From contig QHNR01000078.1 in NCBI GenBank assembly GCA_003218475.1, positions 1 through 32,812 of the forward strand: a stretch of DNA of 32,812 bases, written 5' to 3'. Origin of the DNA: Verrucomicrobiota bacterium (GTDB lineage: Bacteria; Verrucomicrobiota; Verrucomicrobiia; Chthoniobacterales; UBA10450). The notes beneath the pieces were generated by a model, which ran no database searches, was not told the origin of the DNA, and saw only the letters and a program-made list of their open reading frames with translations. A program made the translations under genes and the position numbers. Positions 4,676 through 16,541 of the stretch are shown in pieces. Numbering within the stretch: position 1 is the stretch's first letter; the number at the start of each line of letters is the position of its first letter.

Positions 4676-4705
4676 GGCCTAGGAGCGTAACGAAATTTTC
4701 GGGTA

Positions 4706-4880
4706 GCGCACGCGTCTCGCGTGCTGGGGAGCACAGGCTGCTAGCCTGTAGTTGCCGGCAGCCCTGCCGGCAACATCTTTGGGCATGCAATTCTCAGTCC
4801 ACGTCAATTTCCCGGTCTCGGCAAGCTGCCGAGACCTGCAGGCTGGCAGCCTGCGCTCCCCAGCACTGAGACGCGCAGAC
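4706..4880. repeat. intergenic REPIN-like element, copy 1 of the CTGGGGAGCACAGGC family
   Basis: The left end has GCGTCTCGCGTGCTGGGG followed by AGCACAGGCTGCTAGCCTGT; the right end carries the same sequence inverted (CAGGCTGGCAGCCTG then GCGCTCCCCAGCACTGAGACG). Each arm contains its own small hairpin. Inside are two further palindromes, TTGCCGGCAGCCCTGCCGGCAA and a TCTCGGCAAGCTGCCGAGA arm. It fills the gap between the permease and the SucC-like gene. Related copies lie at 13887-14017 and 16410-16541. Confidence 0.85.
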
Positions 4881-4893
4881 TTCACACCTATCT

Positions 4894-5709
4894 CTACCCG
4901 CCGACAGCCTGATAATGGCCGAGGCCGCGTTTCCACATCGCTTTTGCCCAGGCACACGTGAGTAAGAGCCAGCCAGTTTGGATCGCCAGCGCCTGCACGA
5001 GGTCGGCTCCTTTTAATCGGCCGAGAAAGATTGCGACCGGGCAAAACAACTCATAGTAAAACGGCAGCCACTTCATCACGGCTTGGACCGCGGCGGGCAT
5101 GATGTCGATCGGAAACATCTGGCCGCCTAGGAAATATTCGAATGAATAAACGATGAATACGATAGTGGTGATCTCCAAAATCCAGAACGCGAACATGGCC
5201 AGGCTGTAAGTGATGAAGAATTGAATGAATGCCGCCATCAAGATCGACACTGCGGTAAGCAGGTAGACCAATGGGTCGGCCGGCAGCACGATGTAATCCC
5301 TGAAATAAACAAAGATCAGCGCGATTGGCGGAAGAGTGACGAATGCGTAAACGAGGCGGCCACTCAAAAAAATGCTGAACCGGTAGGCGAGGTAGCTCAT
5401 TGGCTTGGTGAGAAGCGCGTTGATCTGTCCTTCGCGAATATCAGCAGCGATTTGCCATTCGTCCTCTGTCGGCACGACCAGATTGCTCACCAGGATCGTG
5501 AGCAAATAGTAATAAATCATCGAGCTGTAATCGTAGCCGTGCAGGCCGCCGCCACGCTCCTTGAACACTGCCCCCCAGAGAAACACCGTCCCAGCCAGCG
5601 GGATGAGGCCGAAGAGGGCGCGCAGAAAATAATTCCAGCGATACACGAACGTGTTTTGCAGCCCGATGTTAAAAACCGAAGCGTATTTGCCGATCCTACT
5701 CATGCTCAT
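4894..5709 (-). CDS. ABC-2 type transporter permease, orphan
   Basis: 271 residues with about six hydrophobic segments, near residues 25-48, 60-82, 110-133, 140-172, 175-195 and 235-258. This is the layout of the ABC-2 permease family with a conserved first loop (COG4587/DUF990 type: YRWNYFLRALFG, then a LFLWGAVF-like segment). IREGQINALLTKPM is typical of this family. It would form the membrane channel of an ABC exporter together with an ATPase and usually a second permease. Neither is adjacent; upstream lies pdxA in an unrelated block. It is therefore an orphan whose partners must be elsewhere or lost. Two starts are possible, ATG 5709 and ATG 5703, because the start sits in a repeat with CAT triplets (5701-5784). 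The first is listed. Confidence 0.85.
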   Translation of the reverse strand: MSMSRIGKYASVFNIGLQNTFVYRWNYFLRALFGLIPLAGTVFLWGAVFKERGGGLHGYDYSSMIYYYLLTILVSNLVVPTEDEWQIAADIREGQINALLTKPMSYLAYRFSIFLSGRLVYAFVTLPPIALIFVYFRDYIVLPADPLVYLLTAVSILMAAFIQFFITYSLAMFAFWILEITTIVFIVYSFEYFLGGQMFPIDIMPAAVQAVMKWLPFYYELFCPVAIFLGRLKGADLVQALAIQTGWLLLTCAWAKAMWKRGLGHYQAVGG

Positions 5710-5819: not shown

Positions 5820-5961
5820 GTCATTCCGAGCGAAGTCGAGGGCTGAAGGCTCATGCCATGAGCCGCTCGCGACGTTAATAGCATGAAGCTGATTAACGTA
5901 GCAATCCCGTGGTAAACCTTCAGCTAATTCCGCGGGATCCTTCGACTCCGCTCAGGATGAC
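5820..5961. repeat. GTCATTCCGAGCGAAGTCGAGG hairpin element, copy overlapping the pdxA stop
   Basis: GTCATTCCGAGCGAAGTCGA at the left end pairs with TTCGACTCCGCTCAGGATGAC at the right end, about 140 bases apart. The right arm reads into pdxA: the last codons of pdxA (RSS then TGA) lie in the repeat. Other copies are at 14040-14152, 17869-17961 and 22593-22678. Confidence 0.8.
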
Positions 5962-6869
5962 CTTGCGGTCAGTTCCACAGCGAGATTGAGCGCTGCGATC
6001 ATGCTATCGTGTCGCGCGAGTCCCTTGCCGGCAATATCAAACGCAGTGCCGTGATCAGGGCTGGTTCGAGGAAAAGGGAGGCCCAAGGTGACGTTCACAC
6101 CTTCGTGAAAGGCATGCAGCTTCAGTGGGATCAATCCTTGATCGTGATACATACAAAGTACCGCGTCGAATTCGCCTTCGATCGCGCGGTGAAAAACCGT
6201 GTCCGGCGAGTGTGGCCCGGTTATTTCGGACTTCGGATTTCGGATTTCGGATTTCAGCGCCGCGATAGCTGGGCCGATGATATCGATTTCTTCGCTTCCG
6301 ATTTTGCCTGATTCGCCGGCGTGCGGATTTAATCCGGCAATGGCGATGCGCGGTCCTCGCGCCGCAGGACTCGATCGATCCGTCTTCGAACGAGGAATGC
6401 GTGACAAGAAATCCGCAAGCAACAGACCGACGCGGACAATCTCCGATTGCTTTAGCGCATGTGGAACTTCGCTCAATGGAATGTGTGTTGTGACCAGCGC
6501 GACCGTGATTTTTCCGCCCGTCAAGCACATCGCGAAATTTTTGACCCCGCAACGCTCCGCGAAAAATTCCGTTTGCCCTGGGAACTTGAAACCGACGTCG
6601 TACATCCGGGCTTTATGAATCGGCCCTGTTACGATTGCATCGAGCTCGCCGCGCCCGGCGAGTGTGACGGCTTCTTCGAGTGCAGCCGCGGCGGCACGCG
6701 CAGTTTCCGCCGTGGGATGCCCGGGTGTGCAGTCAGGATATTTACCAATGGTTTTGTACTCGGCGGATTTCGGGACTCGACCAGATTTCAATGCAGTATC
6801 GACAATCTCCGGTCCGATTCCGGCGCAATCGCCCAGCGTAATGCCAATGCGCGGTTTTTTTCTGCTCAT
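5952..6869 (-). CDS. pdxA: 4-hydroxythreonine-4-phosphate dehydrogenase PdxA
   Basis: 305 residues. PdxA oxidises 4-phosphooxy-threonine with NAD in the DXP-dependent pyridoxal phosphate pathway. The family signatures are present: GDCAGIGPE near the N-terminus (usually GDPAGIGPE), metal-ligand histidines at His129 (TTHIPLSEVPHAL), His183 (LNPHAGE) and His242 (MYHDQGLIPLK), and RTSPDHGTAFDIAGKG near the end. It is about 20 residues shorter than the E. coli enzyme. Two oddities come from repeats. Residues 205-216 (LKSEIRNPKSEI) are encoded by a tandem TTCGGAT repeat at 6225-6255, and the last residues plus the stop are supplied by an intergenic hairpin repeat (5820-5961). It follows surA on the same strand, an order also seen in enterobacteria (surA-pdxA). 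The ATG at 6869 has AGGAG only one base upstream, so initiation may be weak. Confidence 0.93.
   Translation of the reverse strand: MSRKKPRIGITLGDCAGIGPEIVDTALKSGRVPKSAEYKTIGKYPDCTPGHPTAETARAAAAALEEAVTLAGRGELDAIVTGPIHKARMYDVGFKFPGQTEFFAERCGVKNFAMCLTGGKITVALVTTHIPLSEVPHALKQSEIVRVGLLLADFLSRIPRSKTDRSSPAARGPRIAIAGLNPHAGESGKIGSEEIDIIGPAIAALKSEIRNPKSEITGPHSPDTVFHRAIEGEFDAVLCMYHDQGLIPLKLHAFHEGVNVTLGLPFPRTSPDHGTAFDIAGKGLARHDSMIAALNLAVELTARSS
6225..6255. repeat. tandem TTCGGATT repeat in frame inside pdxA
   Basis: Four TTCGGA(C/T) units in a row with an 8-base period. On the pdxA strand it reads as SEIRNPKSEI. In PdxA of other bacteria nothing corresponds to this stretch, to my knowledge, so it is probably a surface-loop insertion between His183 and His242. 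Confidence 0.7.
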
Positions 6870-6873
6870 GCTC

Positions 6874-7044
6874 CTACATTAATATCCTCTGTTAAGTGGC
6901 AAGCATACACGGAGTGTGGAGTGGCAGCCGCCCTCGGCTGCTGGAGGACGGCCGCCAATCGTATGCGAGACTCCGTGAGGAGCGAGCGGACGGCCAGCCG
7001 GAACAGGCGCGAGTGGAGCGAGGAAACAGAGGATACTAATGTAG
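6874..7044. repeat. 171-bp intergenic segment bounded by 20-bp inverted repeats
   Basis: CTACATTAATATCCTCTGTT (6874-6893) is repeated inverted, with one mismatch, at 7025-7044 (AACAGAGGATACTAATGTAG). The inside holds GC-rich palindromic pieces (GGCAGCCGCCCTCGGCTGC and similar). The left arm ends five bases before the pdxA ATG, so it forms the pdxA leader. It looks like a small non-autonomous insertion or a leader duplicated in inverse orientation. Together with the hairpins to its right it accounts for the gap 6870-7265, in which I see no gene. Confidence 0.6.
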
Positions 7045-7265: not shown

Positions 7266-8255
7266 TCAGAACGTCTTGATGTAAGCCTTTGCGCGCAGGC
7301 CGGCAATCCAGCGTTCCTGAATACTCTGTGCTTCCTCCTGAATCAGTCTCTTCTCGATATCGTCCCGTGCTTCGGCAAGTGAACGCGTAGTGCCGCCGCG
7401 TTTATCTTCGACTTTGATAATATAATAATTGCCAGCGTAATCGATGATGTTGCTGATTCGGCCGACTGGCATATTGAATGCGAATATTTCAAGCGAGGCA
7501 GCCAGAGTGTTGCGCTCGATCCACCCCCAGTCGCCGCCATTGTCGCGGGTGCTGTCTTCGGAATAGACCTGCGCTGTGCGATCGAATTCCGCGCCGCCGG
7601 CCAGCTTACCGAGCACTTCTTCCGCCAGCGCCTTCTGCGCGGGGGCGCTCGCGGTGTCCTTTTGGCCAGGAATCATGATCATTCGCAGCTTGATCTGTTC
7701 CTTGCTGGTGAATTCTTCGTGATGCTTCCTGTAGTAATCTTCGATTTTCGTAGGCGAAATAATCGTGTTCGTCTTGACGTTATGGCTGCGCATGGCCTGC
7801 ACCATTATTCTTTCCAGTTCCTTCTCTTTGAACTCGCCTAACGTGTAATTCTCCGCCTCGAGTGTCTTGATGAAAGTGTTGCGGTCGCCGCCAAAGGATT
7901 CTCGGATGATCTGATGCACCCGGTCGTCGACAATGTGATCCGGGATTTGGTAGCTTTCCTTTTTAAACGCCTGGATCACAAGGCGTCGGTCAATCAAATC
8001 TTTTAAAGCAAGCTCGCGCAGTTCGATCAGCTTCTTTTCCAGTTCCTTGCCGGTGAGCTGCGACCGCAGCAGTTTTTCGCGTGGTGCGGACAATTGCCGA
8101 ACTTGCGAGTAGGTGATGACGTCGCCATTCACAACCGCCGCAATGCCATCTACCACCTGGGCCTCCTCGGCAAATGCAGCGCCACAAAAAGGCCATAGAG
8201 CAAGGCCACAGCCGGTAAGCAAAATGGCGGCAAATGGACGTACAAGATTCCTCAT
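7266..8255 (-). CDS. surA: SurA-like periplasmic peptidyl-prolyl isomerase/chaperone
   Basis: 329 residues. A signal peptide (residues 1-29, cleavage likely after AFA) leads into a SurA N-terminal helical region (VVDGIAAVVNGDVITYSQV, 34-52, and a long helical stretch to about 180). One parvulin-type domain follows (about 185-295, with EFDRTAQVYSED and NGGDWGWIERN). E. coli SurA has two parvulin domains and 428 residues; this is the shorter one-domain type. It is expected to chaperone outer-membrane proteins in the periplasm. An alternative lipobox-like LLTGC at residues 12-16 is noted but the longer signal peptide is preferred. Its ATG overlaps the mfd stop (ATGA, 8255-8252), so the two are translationally coupled. 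pdxA lies next downstream. Confidence 0.85.
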   Translation of the reverse strand: MRNLVRPFAAILLTGCGLALWPFCGAAFAEEAQVVDGIAAVVNGDVITYSQVRQLSAPREKLLRSQLTGKELEKKLIELRELALKDLIDRRLVIQAFKKESYQIPDHIVDDRVHQIIRESFGGDRNTFIKTLEAENYTLGEFKEKELERIMVQAMRSHNVKTNTIISPTKIEDYYRKHHEEFTSKEQIKLRMIMIPGQKDTASAPAQKALAEEVLGKLAGGAEFDRTAQVYSEDSTRDNGGDWGWIERNTLAASLEIFAFNMPVGRISNIIDYAGNYYIIKVEDKRGGTTRSLAEARDDIEKRLIQEEAQSIQERWIAGLRAKAYIKTF

Positions 8256-11200
8256 AATTTTTTAATCAGTGCCTGAATTTCCCGGGGGTACTGATCGATT
8301 TTCGCTGCAACTAAACGGGGAAATTTGCCCGCGACAAGTATAAAATCCCCATGCCGCGTCAACATCAATTTGCGCTCCCGTAATTCCACCCGACTCACTC
8401 CTGATTCCGCTGCGGCGAGCTTGATTTTGATGAGAGCAAATAAATTGTCAACTGCCGGAGGGACCGGCCCAAACCGATCACGCCAATCGCGTTGCAGACG
8501 ATCCAATTGCTCCTGTGAAGTGACCTCCGCGACATTGCGATAGGCTCGTATTCGCAGAGCAGGATCGCTGACATAGGCGACTGGAATGAAAGCGGGAATT
8601 CGCTCGAGGATAGGCGCTTTTCCAAGCGCTTCGGCGGACTGGAGACCGCCGCTCCTTGTTTTTGTGGCTGGAACGTACTCCGCTTCATTTGTGACGACAA
8701 AATCGAGCTGTAAATCGACATCCAATCGGAGCCGCGGTTTCTCACCCTTGAGCTGCGTCACCGCCTGCTTCAGCAACTGGCAATACAAATCGAAACCAAC
8801 CGCTACAATGTGGCCGCTCTGAGCTGTGCCCAGAATGCTGCCTGCGCCGCGAATCTCCAAATCGCGCATGGCGATGCGAAAACCCGCGCCGAGCGAGCTG
8901 TACTGTTTGATGGCGCTGATTCGCTTGCGCGCTGCGCCGATTGTCATCATCTCGCGTGGAAGGAGCAGATAGGCGTATGCCTTGTGCTCGGCTCGGCCGA
9001 CGCGTCCGCGCAATTGATACAAGTCGGCCAGACCAAACTGATCCGCGCGATCGATGATGATGGTGTTTGCGTTGGGGATATCGAGGCCGCTTTCGATGAT
9101 CGTAGTGCAAACGAGCACGTCGGTTTTGCCGGCAATGAAACGGGCCATCACCGCTTCGAGTTCGTCCGCGTCCATCTGGCCATGGCCTATTTCAACTCTG
9201 GCCTGCGGACAAAGATGAACAATCCGGTCCCGCGCGCTCTCGATCGTCGCTACGCGATTGTGCAAAAAAAACACCTGGCCCTGCCGTTCCAATTCGCGAT
9301 CAATTGCGGTGCGAATGATCCGTTCATCGTAGGCTGATACCACGGTTTCTACCGGCAAACGATTGAGCGGCGGCGTCTCAATCGTGGACATATCTTTTAC
9401 CCCCACAAGCGAAAGGTAAAGAGTGCGCGGAATCGGCGTGGCCGAAAGTGTCAGCACATCGACCAGCTTGAAGAGCTCTTTGAACTTTTCCTTGTGAAGA
9501 ACTCCGAAGCGCTGTTCCTCATCGATGATTGCCACGCCAAGGTCCTTGAATACTACGTCGCCGGAGATGAGCCGATGAGTGCCAATGACGATATCAACGC
9601 CGCCTTCGTGTAGCAGTTGTAGCACTTTCTTCTGTTCGGATTGCGAACGAAAGCGGCTGAGCATTTCGATGCGCACCGGGTAATCGAGCATGCGCTGCCG
9701 GAACACTTCGAAATGTTGTTGAGCCAGAACGGTGGTCGGCGCCAGCACGGCTACTTGTTTGCCGGCCATGACCGCCTTGAACGCGGCGCGGACGGCCACT
9801 TCGGTTTTCCCGAAGCCAACGTCGCCACAGATCAGACGATCCATCGGTCGCGGACGTTCCATGTCGATTTTCGCATCAATGATGGCCTTCATTTGATCCG
9901 GCGTTTCGCGAAACGGGAATGAACGCTCAAATTCCGCCTGCCATTTTGTGTCCGGGGCGAATGCGTAACCTGGGTGCATTTGCCGCTCCGCTTGAATCGC
10001 CAACATTTTGCCGGCGTAATCGAAAATGGAAGCCGCAGCTTTTATTTTGGCGCGGGCCCATTTCCCATCGCCGAGCGAGCTTAGCGGCGGCGATTTTTTT
10101 CCCGCGCCGACGTAGCGGGAAACGAGGTACGCTTGCTCGAGAGGGACGTAGAGCTTCGCTTCATCTGCAAATTCGAGTCCGAGAACTTCCTGCTCTTCTT
10201 GTAGCACAGACATCTTGTCTGTGGGGCTAGCGAGCATCTTGCTTGCTGAATCGGCAGACGAGACGCCCGCCGGCCCCACAGGCTGGAAGCCTGTGCTACG
10301 AGGGATTTTTATAAGGCCGAGAAATCGGCCGATGCCGTGCTCAAGGTGCACAACCAAATCGCCTTCGTTCAGTTCGCTAAAGTCGATCTGCGCGCGATTG
10401 CGCTCGGCGCGACGCAAATGCCTGCGCGCATGGACCGCGAATCGCCCAAATAATTCTGCGGCTGAGAGGACGACGAGATTGGCTTCGCGGAAACAAAAGC
10501 CGCGCCGCAACGTTCCTTCGACAAAATCGACGCCTTCAGTTGCGCCTGCCATAATTTCCCGAAAGCGCTCGTTCTCTCCTTCGGTCTGAAAATAAATGAC
10601 GACTCGCGTGTTGTTTGCGCGCCATTCTTTTAAACGTTGGATAAACTGCGCCCGTTTCGCCTCGGCGAGCGCCAGGTCACCGGCCGCAAACTCGCCGATG
10701 TCGCAGTCTTCGAACGCGCCGGTGAAATCTTCCGGACCAGTTTGAATCCAGCCTTCGCTGATCTGGATGTTTGAAGGGGCAACGTCCAGCTTGCCACGCC
10801 GTAACGCCGCGAAGGCGGGCGAGCCCGGCGTCGCAGGAGCTCCGCGCTCCATGTCGGGTTCAATCGCGATTACGAGGTGATTCGGAGCAACGTAATCGCG
10901 AACGAAACCGCTCTGATCGCTGAATAGGAAAGAGCGATCTGGCGAGGCCGCTCCGAGCAAAATAGCGACTGAAGCCAGATCGCGCACGGAGGTTTGACTG
11001 TCGATATCGAACTCGCGTAGCGATTCGATTTGGTCGCCGAAAAATTCCAGCCGGAAGGGCAATGACGCGTGCCACGAATAGAGATCGACAATGCCGCCAC
11101 GGACAGCGAACTGTCCCCGAGTAGTTACTTGGGCGACGCGCTCATAACCGCTGGCCACGAGTTGATCGAGAAGCTGTTCCATCTTTGCGGTTGCGCCGCG

Positions 11201-11749
11201 TCGCAGTTGGCTGACGGCAGATTGGAGCGTGCCGCGCTCTGGCGCGGGTTGATCGAGACTTGCACGCGTCGCGACGATGATACGCGGACCACTGTCGCGC
11301 TCGATCTCCATCAGCAGCGCCAGTCGTTCAGCCGCGATTTCCGGATCGGGTAAAACGTTTTCTACCGCGACAAGCTCGGCTTCCGGCAGGAAAAGCGCGT
11401 CTGGCCGCCAGTTCAGCAAACTCTCGTAAAGCAGTTCTTGAGAATGAACGCTGGGACAGAGGACCCAGATCGTGGAATCGGCAGCGTGACGGTCATCGGG
11501 TGGACGTCCATGGCACGCGTGCGCGATTACGGCGGCCAAGAACGCCTGTGCCGGCTCTATAACGTGCGAAAATTGTACCGGCCATCGAGCCTCTCGTATC
11601 GCGCCAAGTTTGCGCGTGATCGGTTCGCTCGCTGCGACACTTTCCAGAAGCTTTACGCCGACGGATTTTTCCACTAACGAGCTTACGCCAAGTTCTTCCA
11701 GAGTTGTAGCCGCGGCTGTGCCTGCGCCTTCGGCGATTGATGTCGGCAT
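8252..11749 (-). CDS. mfd: transcription-repair coupling factor Mfd
   Basis: 1165 residues from ATG 11749. Mfd removes stalled RNA polymerase and recruits UvrAB. UvrB-like domains lie at the N-terminus. The RNA-polymerase-interacting domain begins with GDLVVHLEHGIGRFLGL (about 465-481). The translocase has Walker A GDVGFGKT near 641, the DEEQ box near 741 and SATPIPRTL. TRG-like motifs (RGRVGRAEHKAYAYLL) and the C-terminal TRCF domain follow. An earlier in-frame GTG at 11773 lies inside a palindrome (11770-11810), so the ATG is preferred. A palindromic repeat (10201-10300) is inserted in frame in the polymerase-interacting domain and encodes STGFQPVGPAGVSSADSAS and more, about 34 extra residues. 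A further small hairpin repeat encodes residues near 1035. aroF lies upstream and surA overlaps downstream. Confidence 0.97.
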   Translation of the reverse strand: MPTSIAEGAGTAAATTLEELGVSSLVEKSVGVKLLESVAASEPITRKLGAIREARWPVQFSHVIEPAQAFLAAVIAHACHGRPPDDRHAADSTIWVLCPSVHSQELLYESLLNWRPDALFLPEAELVAVENVLPDPEIAAERLALLMEIERDSGPRIIVATRASLDQPAPERGTLQSAVSQLRRGATAKMEQLLDQLVASGYERVAQVTTRGQFAVRGGIVDLYSWHASLPFRLEFFGDQIESLREFDIDSQTSVRDLASVAILLGAASPDRSFLFSDQSGFVRDYVAPNHLVIAIEPDMERGAPATPGSPAFAALRRGKLDVAPSNIQISEGWIQTGPEDFTGAFEDCDIGEFAAGDLALAEAKRAQFIQRLKEWRANNTRVVIYFQTEGENERFREIMAGATEGVDFVEGTLRRGFCFREANLVVLSAAELFGRFAVHARRHLRRAERNRAQIDFSELNEGDLVVHLEHGIGRFLGLIKIPRSTGFQPVGPAGVSSADSASKMLASPTDKMSVLQEEQEVLGLEFADEAKLYVPLEQAYLVSRYVGAGKKSPPLSSLGDGKWARAKIKAAASIFDYAGKMLAIQAERQMHPGYAFAPDTKWQAEFERSFPFRETPDQMKAIIDAKIDMERPRPMDRLICGDVGFGKTEVAVRAAFKAVMAGKQVAVLAPTTVLAQQHFEVFRQRMLDYPVRIEMLSRFRSQSEQKKVLQLLHEGGVDIVIGTHRLISGDVVFKDLGVAIIDEEQRFGVLHKEKFKELFKLVDVLTLSATPIPRTLYLSLVGVKDMSTIETPPLNRLPVETVVSAYDERIIRTAIDRELERQGQVFFLHNRVATIESARDRIVHLCPQARVEIGHGQMDADELEAVMARFIAGKTDVLVCTTIIESGLDIPNANTIIIDRADQFGLADLYQLRGRVGRAEHKAYAYLLLPREMMTIGAARKRISAIKQYSSLGAGFRIAMRDLEIRGAGSILGTAQSGHIVAVGFDLYCQLLKQAVTQLKGEKPRLRLDVDLQLDFVVTNEAEYVPATKTRSGGLQSAEALGKAPILERIPAFIPVAYVSDPALRIRAYRNVAEVTSQEQLDRLQRDWRDRFGPVPPAVDNLFALIKIKLAAAESGVSRVELRERKLMLTRHGDFILVAGKFPRLVAAKIDQYPREIQALIKKL
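8632..8651. repeat. small CGGCGG hairpin within mfd
   Basis: CGGCGGACTGGAGACCGCCG is an imperfect palindrome read in frame in mfd as part of RSGGLQSAEALGKAP. It falls in a variable linker between the translocase and the C-terminal domain. It is probably a single REP arm. Confidence 0.5.
10201..10300. repeat. REPIN-like doublet inserted in frame in mfd
   Basis: GTAGCACAGACATCTTGTCTG followed by TGGGGC opens the element; the closing end is its inverted counterpart with a different stem (GCCCCACAGGCTGGAAGCC then TGTGCTAC). Both arms are hairpins. It is translated as Mfd residues about 484-517 without stop or frameshift, between GLIKIPR and QEEQEVLGLEFAD. That is a loop of the RNA-polymerase-interacting barrel. 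Confidence 0.85.
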
Positions 11750-11769
11750 CGTCTTCAGGAGAAGCCGAT

Positions 11770-11810
11770 CCACCTTTGCGCAAGGTGGAACGCGTTGTCC
11801 TCAACGCGTT
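11770..11810. repeat. double palindrome upstream of mfd
   Basis: CCACCTTTGCGCAAGGTGG (11770-11788) is a near-perfect palindrome. It is followed by AACGCGTT-GTCCTC-AACGCGTT (11789-11810), two copies of a self-complementary octamer. It lies in the 87-base gap between aroF and mfd and contains the alternative GTG start of mfd. It could be a REP element or an operator; the repeat explanation is favoured. Confidence 0.6.
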
Positions 11811-13813: not shown

Positions 13814-13886
13814 AGAATCTTCGATGGCGTTCTTAATGCGCAAGCTGCGCAAAAAGTCAAGCGGGGCGAACAGGTTTTGCGCTTCC

Positions 13887-14017
13887 GAGGAGCACAGGCT
13901 GCCAGCCTGTTCATCTCGGCAGCTTGCCGAGATGCCTGTTTGTTCAGTGGTCGCCGCGAATCAGAATGTTGCCGGCAAGCTGCCTGCAACTACAGGCCAG
14001 CGGCCTGTGCTCCCCAG
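13887..14017. repeat. intergenic REPIN-like element, copy 2 of the GGGGAGCACAGGC family
   Basis: GAGGAGCACAGGCTGCCAGCC opens and CAGGCCAGCGGCCTGTGC then TCCCCAG closes the element. Inner palindromes include ATCTCGGCAGCTTGCCGAGAT and GTTGCCGGCAAGCTGCCTGCAAC. It lies in the 345-base gap 13814-14158, which has no gene. Confidence 0.8.
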
Positions 14018-14158: not shown

Positions 14159-16363
14159 TTATTTACACCATTGATCCACCCAATCGTTCACAGTTTTGTA
14201 CCACAGCCGGCTGTTCTGCGGCTTGAGCACCCAATGGCCTTCGTCGGGGAAATACAACATCTTCGACGGGACTTTCAGGATTTGCAGGGTAGTGAAAAGA
14301 TCGAATCCTTGCGAAACGTCGATCCGGTAATCGTTCTGACCGTGTACGACCAGTGTCGGCGTTTTGAACTTCGCCGCGTACTCGTGCGGTGACCACTTCC
14401 GATAAACATCCCGTTTTTTCCATGGCGGACCGCCGAATTCCCAATTCATGAACCAAATCTCCTCCGTCGTGCCATACGCCGACTCCGCGTTAAACATGCC
14501 GTCGTGCGACACTATGCATTTGAGCCGATTTGTGTGACCTAACAACCAGTTCGCCATGTAACCACCGTAGCTCGCGCCCAGCGCCGCCTCGCGGTTCTTG
14601 TCGACGAACGGGTAGGTCTTCTCCACGTAATCGAGTCCCTTCATCAGATCGACATACGGTTTGCCGCCCCAATCCCCGCTGATCGAGTCGGTAAACTTCT
14701 GCCCGTAACCGGTCGAGCCGTGGAAATTTATCATCACCACTACGTAATTTCCGGTCGCAGCGAACAACTCCGCGTTCCAGCGATACGTCCACTCGTTCCC
14801 CCATGCGCCTTGCGGCCCGCCGTGGATCAAAAATTTCAGCGGATACTTTTTATTCGGATCGAATCCCGGCGGCTTGACCAAGAAACCCTGCACTTTTTCG
14901 TTATCCGCGCCTTTGAATGTGAACGATTCCAACGGTTGCATGTCGATCTGCGACAACAGCGTGTCGTTCATGTGAGTAAGGGCAACGGGATCCGGAGTCT
15001 GCAGAAAATCTGAGTCGAGGTGTGAGGTATCTAAGTAGTAAATCTCATTCGGGGCTGTAGCTGCCATTCTCGTGAAGTACAATCGTGCTACCGGTGCACT
15101 GAACGTCAGATCATCCGCGTGGATTTGGGGAACAATGTTCGGAGGTACCCGAAAAGCCTGCTTCGTTTCGAGCGAGACAACGAACACGGGCGCTTCTCCG
15201 TCATCCTCAAAGCTGGCAAAAATTCTTTTAGAATCTGCTGACCATGCGAAGCTGCCTGCCGAACGGTCGAAAATGTCGGTTCGATCCTCAGTGTCGCCCG
15301 AGTGCCGATCTTGCACGAGGAGCCGCCATTTATCGGCTTCGAAGCCGGCGCGCGCTTGCGAGCGCCAGGCGAGATATTTTCCGTCCGGCGAATAGAGCGG
15401 CGTCGAATCGGCGCCTCGACTGGTGGAAATCTTCTTGGGCGATGCTGTAGCGTGCGCTGTCCTCAGCGCATCAGGGGATTGTCCGCTGGGGACAGCGGAC
15501 TCTACAGCAATCGCCACAGTGAAAATTTCGTTGTTCGTGCTGGTCGCTTCGACCTCGTCGATGTTGCTCGTGTACGCGACCTCCTGCCCGCCGGGCGAAA
15601 TCGCATACATATCCTGCCCGCCTAACGAGAACGGCGGCACATCGTGATCGCCTGGAGTGAGATCACGCGGCTCGTTCTTCTGTAGTGGCAGCCGTGTCGG
15701 CTGCGATTCTGGAGATGGTGCAGGCGACACGCCTGCCTCTACAGTTGCGTCCGCTGAAACCACAAACAAATGGCTCCGCTTGAATTCAGTGAATGCGTTC
15801 CAATGCCGATAGAACAAGCGAGAAAAAATTTTTGCTTTTACTTTGCTCTTCTTCAGCTCTTCATCGCGTTGCTTGTTGCACGCATCATCTCTGCAATCCG
15901 CATAAACCGCCGACACGAACACGATGTTCTTCCCATCGGGCGACCAGATCCCTCCGTCGGCACCGGTAGAAATTGTCGTTAGCTGCCGAGGCTTCCCAAC
16001 CAGCGCTCCGCTTCCGGAGTCGAAATCGCACATCCAGATTTGCGTCGGATCAGTCGCTTTCGAAGTCCAAATGAGCCGTTTGCCGTCCGGTGAAAACCGC
16101 GGGCGCTCCTCGTGATTCGGCGTCGGATTCAATCGCTGCGATTCGCCGCCATTCGCCGGCACGATCCACAAATGCGAAATCTTCGTGTTCGCCGCAAGAT
16201 CGACATCTTGGCAATCGAACACGACCCATTTGCCATCCGGCGATGGCACCGGCGCGCCCACCCGCTTCAGCGCCATCATGTCTTCGAAGGTGAATGGATG
16301 CTTGGGGCTCTGGGCGAGGGCTAATGTCGCGAGCGCGAGAAAAATGGCAGGAAGTATTTTCAT
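14159..16363 (-). CDS. secreted S9-family peptidase (dipeptidyl/acylaminoacyl peptidase type)
   Basis: 734 residues from ATG 16363, with signal peptide MKILPAIFLALATLALAQS. The N-terminal beta-propeller has TolB/WD-like repeats (PSPDGKWVVFDC, FSPDGKRLIWTS, YSPDGKYLAWRS). The C-terminal alpha/beta hydrolase has Ser598 in GASYGGYMANW, Asp678 in GQNDYRID and His710 in DEGHWV, a complete catalytic triad. It is expected to trim oligopeptides in the periplasm. Two REPIN-like doublets are translated in frame inside the propeller: 15680-15744 (residues about 207-228) and 15444-15508 (about 286-307). The longer in-frame start at 16420 would fuse non-signal residues encoded next to a repeat, so it is rejected. 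The gene ends in a repeat-rich gap. Confidence 0.93.
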   Translation of the reverse strand: MKILPAIFLALATLALAQSPKHPFTFEDMMALKRVGAPVPSPDGKWVVFDCQDVDLAANTKISHLWIVPANGGESQRLNPTPNHEERPRFSPDGKRLIWTSKATDPTQIWMCDFDSGSGALVGKPRQLTTISTGADGGIWSPDGKNIVFVSAVYADCRDDACNKQRDEELKKSKVKAKIFSRLFYRHWNAFTEFKRSHLFVVSADATVEAGVSPAPSPESQPTRLPLQKNEPRDLTPGDHDVPPFSLGGQDMYAISPGGQEVAYTSNIDEVEATSTNNEIFTVAIAVESAVPSGQSPDALRTAHATASPKKISTSRGADSTPLYSPDGKYLAWRSQARAGFEADKWRLLVQDRHSGDTEDRTDIFDRSAGSFAWSADSKRIFASFEDDGEAPVFVVSLETKQAFRVPPNIVPQIHADDLTFSAPVARLYFTRMAATAPNEIYYLDTSHLDSDFLQTPDPVALTHMNDTLLSQIDMQPLESFTFKGADNEKVQGFLVKPPGFDPNKKYPLKFLIHGGPQGAWGNEWTYRWNAELFAATGNYVVVMINFHGSTGYGQKFTDSISGDWGGKPYVDLMKGLDYVEKTYPFVDKNREAALGASYGGYMANWLLGHTNRLKCIVSHDGMFNAESAYGTTEEIWFMNWEFGGPPWKKRDVYRKWSPHEYAAKFKTPTLVVHGQNDYRIDVSQGFDLFTTLQILKVPSKMLYFPDEGHWVLKPQNSRLWYKTVNDWVDQWCK
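15444..15508. repeat. REPIN-like doublet in frame in the S9 peptidase gene (a)
   Basis: GCTGTAGCGTGCGCTGTCCTC then AGCGC opens; GTCCGCTGGGGACAGCGGAC then TCTACAGC closes. The outer GCTGTAG/CTACAGC ends are those of the uvrD copy (23299-23371). It encodes AVESAVPSGQSPDALRTAHA and neighbours. Confidence 0.8.
15680..15744. repeat. REPIN-like doublet in frame in the S9 peptidase gene (b)
   Basis: CTGTAGTGGCAGCCGTGTCGG then CTGC opens and GCAGGCGACACGCCTGCC then TCTACAG closes, an inverted pair of hairpin arms. It encodes VEAGVSPAPSPESQPTRLPL within the propeller, in a loop where close relatives would be expected to be shorter. Confidence 0.8.
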
Positions 16364-16409
16364 GAGCCGCAAAACTCTCGCTGAAGAATTGTGCATGCAA
16401 GCTCTGTCT

Positions 16410-16541
16410 CTGGGGAGCACAGGCCGCTGGCCTGTAGTTCGCGGCAGCCTGCCGCGAACATGTTGGCGAACCTCGCGCGGGTTAATTCACTGCGTTCGGC
16501 AAGCTGCCAAACGCTACAGGCCAGCGGCCTGTGCTCCCCAG
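16410..16541. repeat. intergenic REPIN-like element, copy 3 of the CTGGGGAGCACAGGC family
   Basis: CTGGGGAGCACAGGCCGCTGG then CCTGTAG opens; CTACAGGCCAGCGGCCTGTG then CTCCCCAG closes, a perfect 28-base inverted repeat. An inner palindrome GTTCGCGGCAGCCTGCCGCGAAC is present. It lies between the S9 peptidase and the CDGSH gene, two divergent genes, and probably sits in or near their promoters. Confidence 0.88.

Follow-up and report, generated by a model that had tools for sequence, protein, structure and literature searches.

In the strict sense, a REPIN owes its mobility to a RAYT transposase whose gene has copies of that REP on its flanks. In the available part of the survey of Di Nocera et al. 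(2013; PMC3733652), most REPs are found between genes and many inside genes; the statement of an earlier note on the DNA studied here, that REPINs are normally kept out of genes, is not supported in that form. More than half of the intragenic REPs described in that part are dimers or groups encoding 20–30 residues; the most intragenic GTAG repeats were found in the verrucomicrobium Opitutus terrae; and the recB genes of two Xanthomonas species carry different REPs at about the same site. Two further systems are similar by description: Rickettsia palindromic elements (RPE), which are palindromic and translated in frame within conserved genes, RPE-4 and RPE-6 being treated as CGTC and not as GTAG repeats (available part of PMC3733652), and the enterobacterial small mobile sequences RU, which are reported to have open frames and to occur inside genes (available part of PMC2759123).

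Since translated REP dimers in repair genes, a verrucomicrobium included, have been published (PMC3733652, same part), the kind of element considered here is already known. The elements described below share with the intragenic GTAG/CGTC REPs of that source the GTAG ends, the frequently dimeric form, the translation, and the many hosts among DNA repair genes. However, the recB case given there concerns one species pair, whereas the slot in Mfd involves several families, tens of species, mosaics, nesting, and a local replacement. The new part is this serial re-use of one slot by several families, with many switches, which was not found in the literature searched (main texts, with supplementary files outside the scope). 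Mfd is absent from the main text of PMC3733652, its supplementary list of intragenic REPs lying outside the search; Mfd combined with REPs yielded one unrelated paper only, Udaeobacter with palindromic repeats yielded none, and REPIN with RAYT and Verrucomicrobia yielded only PMC3733652.

The window, i.e., the whole analysed stretch of 32,812 nucleotides (contig QHNR01000078.1, order Chthoniobacterales), contains three sites of such elements, two in mfd and one in a peptidase gene (Table 1).

Table 1. Elements, host genes, and the interrupted protein domain in the window.
Feature	Positions	Strand	Length or product	Basis
mfd (transcription-repair coupling factor), host gene	8252–11773	(-)		ORF and Pfam domains
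CarD_TRCF_RID, RNA-polymerase-interacting domain, split by element A	10109–10372	(-)	residues 468–555	Pfam
Family A palindromic doublet, GTAG...CTAC (element A)	10201–10299	(-)	99 nt; ~33 residues	translated
Half of a family D (GGAG...CTCC) element in mfd	10819–10851	(-)	peptide MERGAPATPGSPAFAALRRGKL	family D match
Family F element in the S9 peptidase gene (ORF 14159–16420)	15679–15745	(-)	peptide TVEAGVSPAPSPESQPTRLPLQ	translated

Element A lies in frame inside the polymerase-binding domain of Mfd, as the earlier note had proposed: the ORF is open throughout the element (GRFLGLIKI-PRSTGFQPVGPAGVSSADSASKMLASPTDKMSVLQEEQE-VLGLEFADEAKLYVP), and the protein has the Pfam domains UvrB_inter, CarD_TRCF_RID (with element A inside), DEAD, Helicase_C, and TRCF. 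The two inverted hairpin arms that the note described are also seen, at positions 10198–10249 and 10251–10302, with a complementarity of 73%; the fold of the single-stranded DNA has z = -5.7, and none of 200 dinucleotide shuffles folds equally well. The element begins with GTAGCACAG... and ends with ...CTGTGCTAC, as in the hairpins of GTAG-type REPs, and the two inverted arms with their spacer have the layout of a REPIN. In the computed fold of the whole doublet, GTAG is paired with CTAC of the opposite arm; in a lone arm, GTAG would presumably be unpaired. GTAG-type REPs are extragenic by name, whereas the window copy lies inside mfd. The rest of Mfd, taken by the note to be intact, harbours the second translated element of Table 1. 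At this second stretch, a D-like peptide is present in several loci of the window's genus (g1) and of genus g4, and plain 28 residues are found in many others. In G036, a longer peptide near the same stretch looks repeat-derived.

A search of the window's own genome (195 contigs, 83.5% complete) with family A gave 18 matches, both strands counted, at 11 places including the window, i.e., similar DNA recurs at ten further places. Family A matches are also present in 29 of 35 g1 genomes, so that the element is dispersed and multicopy, as GTAG-type REPs are, and the idea of a dispersed palindromic doublet that was inserted and is tolerated as a peptide holds. Within the window, a search with a 27-base symmetric pattern returned element A itself as the sole match (three mismatches). 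Weak matches to A, G, or F arms, with scores of 15–18, about the chance level, are seen at positions 4681–4900, 5881–6020, 6881–6980, and 13841–13980. The suggestion that such elements are able by sequence to insert as peptides fares poorly: the ten own-genome A copies have, on average, 3.60 of six frames open versus 3.12 after shuffling, and the window copy has three. The consensus of family D is open in all six frames; since its 43 copies have a mean of 5.60 open frames versus 5.23 in shuffled sequences, this openness mostly reflects base composition.

The loop stretch is 213 nt long in the window and 123 nt in the most frequent empty form, so that the window's protein is longer here by a net 30 residues. 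In an AlphaFold model built from 34 aligned sequences, the insert (residues 56–87) has pLDDT below 50 and is placed between strands 42–53 and 89–97, in keeping with a looped-out insert. The model is poor overall (mean pLDDT 50.8; 102 of 216 residues below 50), hence the low pLDDT at the insert says little. The best 13 of 224 matches in a structure search with this model are Mfd structures.

The Mfd region is present in 187 of the 197 genomes searched. Loops were read at 70 loci with G handles and at 80 named loci, the latter mostly from bins called Verrucomicrobia, Spartobacteria, or Chthoniobacterales, with a few Candidatus Udaeobacter. A loop was obtained from 141 of these 150 loci, and 81 loops are distinct at the DNA level; the other nine loci (L090, L150, L157, L162, L171, L172, L173, L174, and L176) gave no loop by the pattern and stand outside the tree. 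Some genera were read in part, e.g., seven of the 11 genomes in g4 and three of seven in g3. JAICUQ010000075.1 and G024, the latter being the best foreign match in the Mfd search, have identical loops.

The loop between two strands of the RNA-polymerase-interacting barrel of Mfd is probably a permissive slot that has been entered repeatedly by small, dispersed REP-type palindromic elements in this lineage of Chthoniobacterales. The insert comes from one of several multicopy families, the frame is open, and the content of the slot differs between close relatives. Among the 31 distinct loop alleles of g1, 29 carry inserts: these comprise five palindromic families that can be told apart (A, B, C, D, and F), together with one mosaic and nested elements. 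Filled loops are also found in g5 (4/4), g4 (6/7), g10 (2/4), g14 (1/6), g11 (1/1), and g13 (1/1); all loops read from g2, g3, g6, g7, g9, and g12, six of the 12 other genera of the family, are empty. Among the 81 distinct loops, 35 are empty, 14 hold B, 11 hold F, seven hold D, six hold C, and three hold A; three have C with a nested G (CG loops), one is a C/A mosaic, and one is assigned to "other". In 44 of the 46 filled rows, at least one arm of A, B, C, D, F, or G, and often only one, scores above the 0.999 threshold from shuffled sequences; of the two rows below it, G020 was placed in C by eye and L168 is the "other" one. The mean folding z of the loops is -3.8 for A, -2.8 for B, -3.7 for C, -1.5 for D, -2.8 for F, and 0.0 for the three CG loops, and some of the D, B, and F loops do not surpass their shuffles in folding; both here and for the arm threshold, the shuffles preserve single-base composition only. 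The shortest loops, in G002 and G009 (108 nt), look like deletions, and GGTA retained in the latter may be a scar.

Two simple accounts were rejected. A one-off accident in one species is ruled out by the proportion of filled alleles in g1. Inheritance of the same insert from a distant ancestor is rejected on the eight order-level loops read (G115, G119, G120, G129, G150, G188, L177, and L178), which are all short and lack the insert, L168 being long and of unclear place. With other copies present in the genome and the insert missing from these loops, neither of the two outcomes that the note named as refuting is seen. The loop of L168, which stands outside the main group, has 66 residues in the VVH..LYIP stretch, folds with z = -5.3, and matches no named family.

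Could the variety be an artefact of assembly or binning? The loop rows come mostly from metagenome bins, and the window's own genome is incomplete, as noted above; however, each filled loop that was read has an open frame and sits in a single contig between mfd sequences (disrupted copies would escape the search), and sixty loop alleles are identical in a second collection, though possibly from the same assemblies. This makes an artefact extremely improbable.

Each of the five families has matches in the genomes of g1: among 35 genomes, and with the mfd copy counted where present, A was found in 29, B in 29, C in 34, D in 25, and F in 33. The number of family matches per genome ranges from 0 to 30 among the matches listed, with at most about 26 best candidates scored per genome in the family searches and a palindrome possibly counted once per strand; in G007, the sole A match is its mfd copy. 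The arm consensuses were derived from the loops themselves, and their independence rests on these genome searches. The elements of A, B, C, and F have GTAG/CTAC ends, while D has GGAG/CTCC. The reading register of GTAG is the same in A and C, and another in B and F; the spacers also differ between these two pairs. The arms of B and F are alike (cross-scores 13–18), hence the five families may be four, one of them split.

These data bear on the possibility that one element entered mfd in the ancestor of the family and drifted, the "families" being its diverged versions. The common GTAG...CTAC ends of A, B, C, and F at about the same position, the similarity of the B and F arms, and the retention of the same family in g5 and in several close pairs would fit such a history. 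However, it is largely refuted by the matches of each family to its own repeats elsewhere in the genus; furthermore, D lacks the GTAG ends, species with 97.6% identical mfd differ in family, and empty and filled alleles alternate within g4, g10, and g14. A single ancient insertion is therefore very unlikely.

The turnover of the slot was followed on a maximum likelihood tree built from the Mfd flanks, with 81 rows and 1510 retained columns; 46 of its 78 inner branches are starred. The smallest number of changes on this tree is 26 for nine states and eight for empty versus filled; among the filled rows, with CG merged into C and the mosaic and "other" omitted, it is 18. These counts do not distinguish gain from loss and are inflated by exchange of mfd between species. 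The clearest case is the pair of G014, which has C, and G031, which has D: their mfd genes are 97.6% identical over 1371 nt, with 0 to 6 differences per 60-nt window in the flanks, and the loop is replaced. The loop and spacer of G031 resemble the D alleles of G021 and G025, although a grouping of G031 with these two in a single clade is rejected by the flanks (AU p 1.5e-42). Uniting G000 and G024, which both have A alleles, in a clade is rejected as well (AU p 0.001); both tests were picked after the tree was seen. Given the D-like loop of G031 despite its conflicting flanks, some switches look like short-tract replacements rather than fresh insertions. In other cases, elements seem to have inserted into elements already present: G030 has a C/A mosaic, and G-type repeats are nested with C in G005, G013, and G023. 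Around the loop, empty and filled alleles are too different for a target-site duplication, as expected for a MITE, to be read by eye; neither such a duplication nor a target motif was established. In-frame insertion, switching of families at one slot, and one local replacement are thus observed directly.

The re-use of the loop by several families might also come from the DNA: if the transposase preferred a target motif or strand exposure found there, the loop would be an insertion hot spot, beyond mere tolerance. The nested and mosaic elements suggest that an element already in place draws in further ones, and the slot in a 3-hydroxyacyl-CoA dehydrogenase gene, described below, is not re-used likewise; both would agree with a hot spot. 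On the other hand, A/C and B/F differ in register and spacer, D has other ends, and re-use of the S9 peptidase slot together with D versus C in the LMF1-type gene points to general protein tolerance. A hot spot is, accordingly, rather unlikely, and a permissive slot is the reading that we retain.

The S9 peptidase slot was seen at 14 loci in 13 g1 genomes, and here, too, the family switches between species. Five loci have F (G000, G001, G015, G021, and G022); two have D (G006 and one of the two G016 loci); and four have A (G023, G030, the other G016 locus, and G024, the last by match overlap only). Of the remaining loci, G019 and G033 have an insert of no assigned family, and G017 is short (split match). 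The dehydrogenase slot, used as a control, was read at 13 of 26 loci. D is present in nine of these 13 (G000, G006, G010, G014, G017, G021, G025, G028, and G031), another insert in G001, and no element in G003, G008, and G020. Since this slot has mostly one family and no switching, switching is not common to every slot. The slot-reading pattern had missed five of the 14 peptidase loci, four of which were regained, and 16 of the 26 dehydrogenase loci, with three regained. In the LMF1-type gene (L365, L381, L382, and L410), D is seen at three loci and C at one, at about the same place; this gene is perhaps another family-switching slot.

Among 28 sites fetched from the window's own genome (10 A, 10 F, 5 D, and 3 B, the F sites being the matches listed and 13 C matches standing outside this census), seven are in frame within conserved genes, namely those for aconitase, a PF02621 menaquinone-biosynthesis protein, MutS, glycerate kinase, 3-hydroxyacyl-CoA dehydrogenase, SMC, and an EngA-type GTPase, the last host being called by Pfam domains on both sides, as the codon score failed. 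With the three sites of the window added, ten of 31 own-genome sites, all families together, lie inside conserved genes.

We also applied a strict coding test to 80 sites from the top of the listed matches, with the mfd sites and the own genome set aside; it was passed by 21 of 40 D sites, 5 of 20 F, 1 of 10 C, and 1 of 10 B. Such a choice favours well-preserved, hence coding, copies, and several sites are the same slot in different species: the passing D sites represent only seven gene slots and the passing F sites two. D hosts among L339, L340, L342, and L347–L384 are genes for 3-hydroxyacyl-CoA dehydrogenase, SMC, FtsK, LMF1, and a tRNA methyltransferase-family protein; the frequent position of D inside genes may reflect a preference, common descent, or the sampling. 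MutL, DnaX, and, under a less strict test, TilS contain in-frame elements (L418, L388, L398, and L419). The hosts thus include many genes of repair, replication, or tRNA function, like those of other species in the available part of PMC3733652.

The insert starts directly after a residue that corresponds, in the alignment, to residue 499 of E. coli Mfd (chain 6x26_A), and the L499R variant of the E. coli protein is reported, in the available text of PMC5910403, to show deficient interaction with the beta subunit of RNA polymerase. The peptides might, hence, have been kept for altered binding of Mfd to RNA polymerase, e.g., for weaker coupling and a higher mutation rate. Several other hosts with roles in repair or replication (MutS, MutL, DnaX, SMC, and FtsK) fit this idea, and a mutator role has been voiced in PMC3733652 (available part). 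However, the peptide sequences differ between families, and metabolic enzymes (aconitase, glycerate kinase, and 3-hydroxyacyl-CoA dehydrogenase) serve as hosts as well; retention for altered binding is distinctly unlikely. Some function of the peptide is possible, as the insert is beside the RNA polymerase contact, yet different sequences fill this place in different species, and the loop peptide is probably close to neutral.

The likely mechanism is a combination of insertion and short-tract exchange of loop alleles. Transposition would bring in the elements at first, with a Y1/RAYT-type enzyme working in trans as the natural candidate; those that land in frame may persist because the peptide loops out and additional residues are tolerated at this place. 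Later changes would be due partly to short-tract exchange of loop alleles between species, and partly to new elements landing in or beside old ones. As in REPIN/RAYT systems, a dispersed element of about 100 bp with two inverted REP hairpins occurs together with Y1 transposase genes, Y1_Tnp genes being present in 33 of 35 g1 genomes. Unlike in those systems, the window copy is inside a gene, and no association of elements with Y1 genes was seen at 29 scanned Y1 loci (the flanks of 24 lack any A–G arm, and those of five have one), so that the Y1 enzyme is only a candidate mobiliser.

More tentatively, and with considerable doubt, certain loops in conserved proteins may serve as lasting docking sites for mobile repeats: once occupied, such a loop would receive other repeat families again and again, via insertion into the old element and allele exchange between species, and mobile DNA would thereby keep supplying new peptide to that side of a repair factor which faces RNA polymerase. 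Independently of this possibility, one loop with several inserts in many species amounts to an experiment by nature, with dense replication, on the uptake of mobile DNA by proteins. It makes it testable whether the inserts are neutral padding or alter function, here the grip of Mfd on RNA polymerase; and the contents of the loop record which repeat families were active in uncultured soil bacteria.
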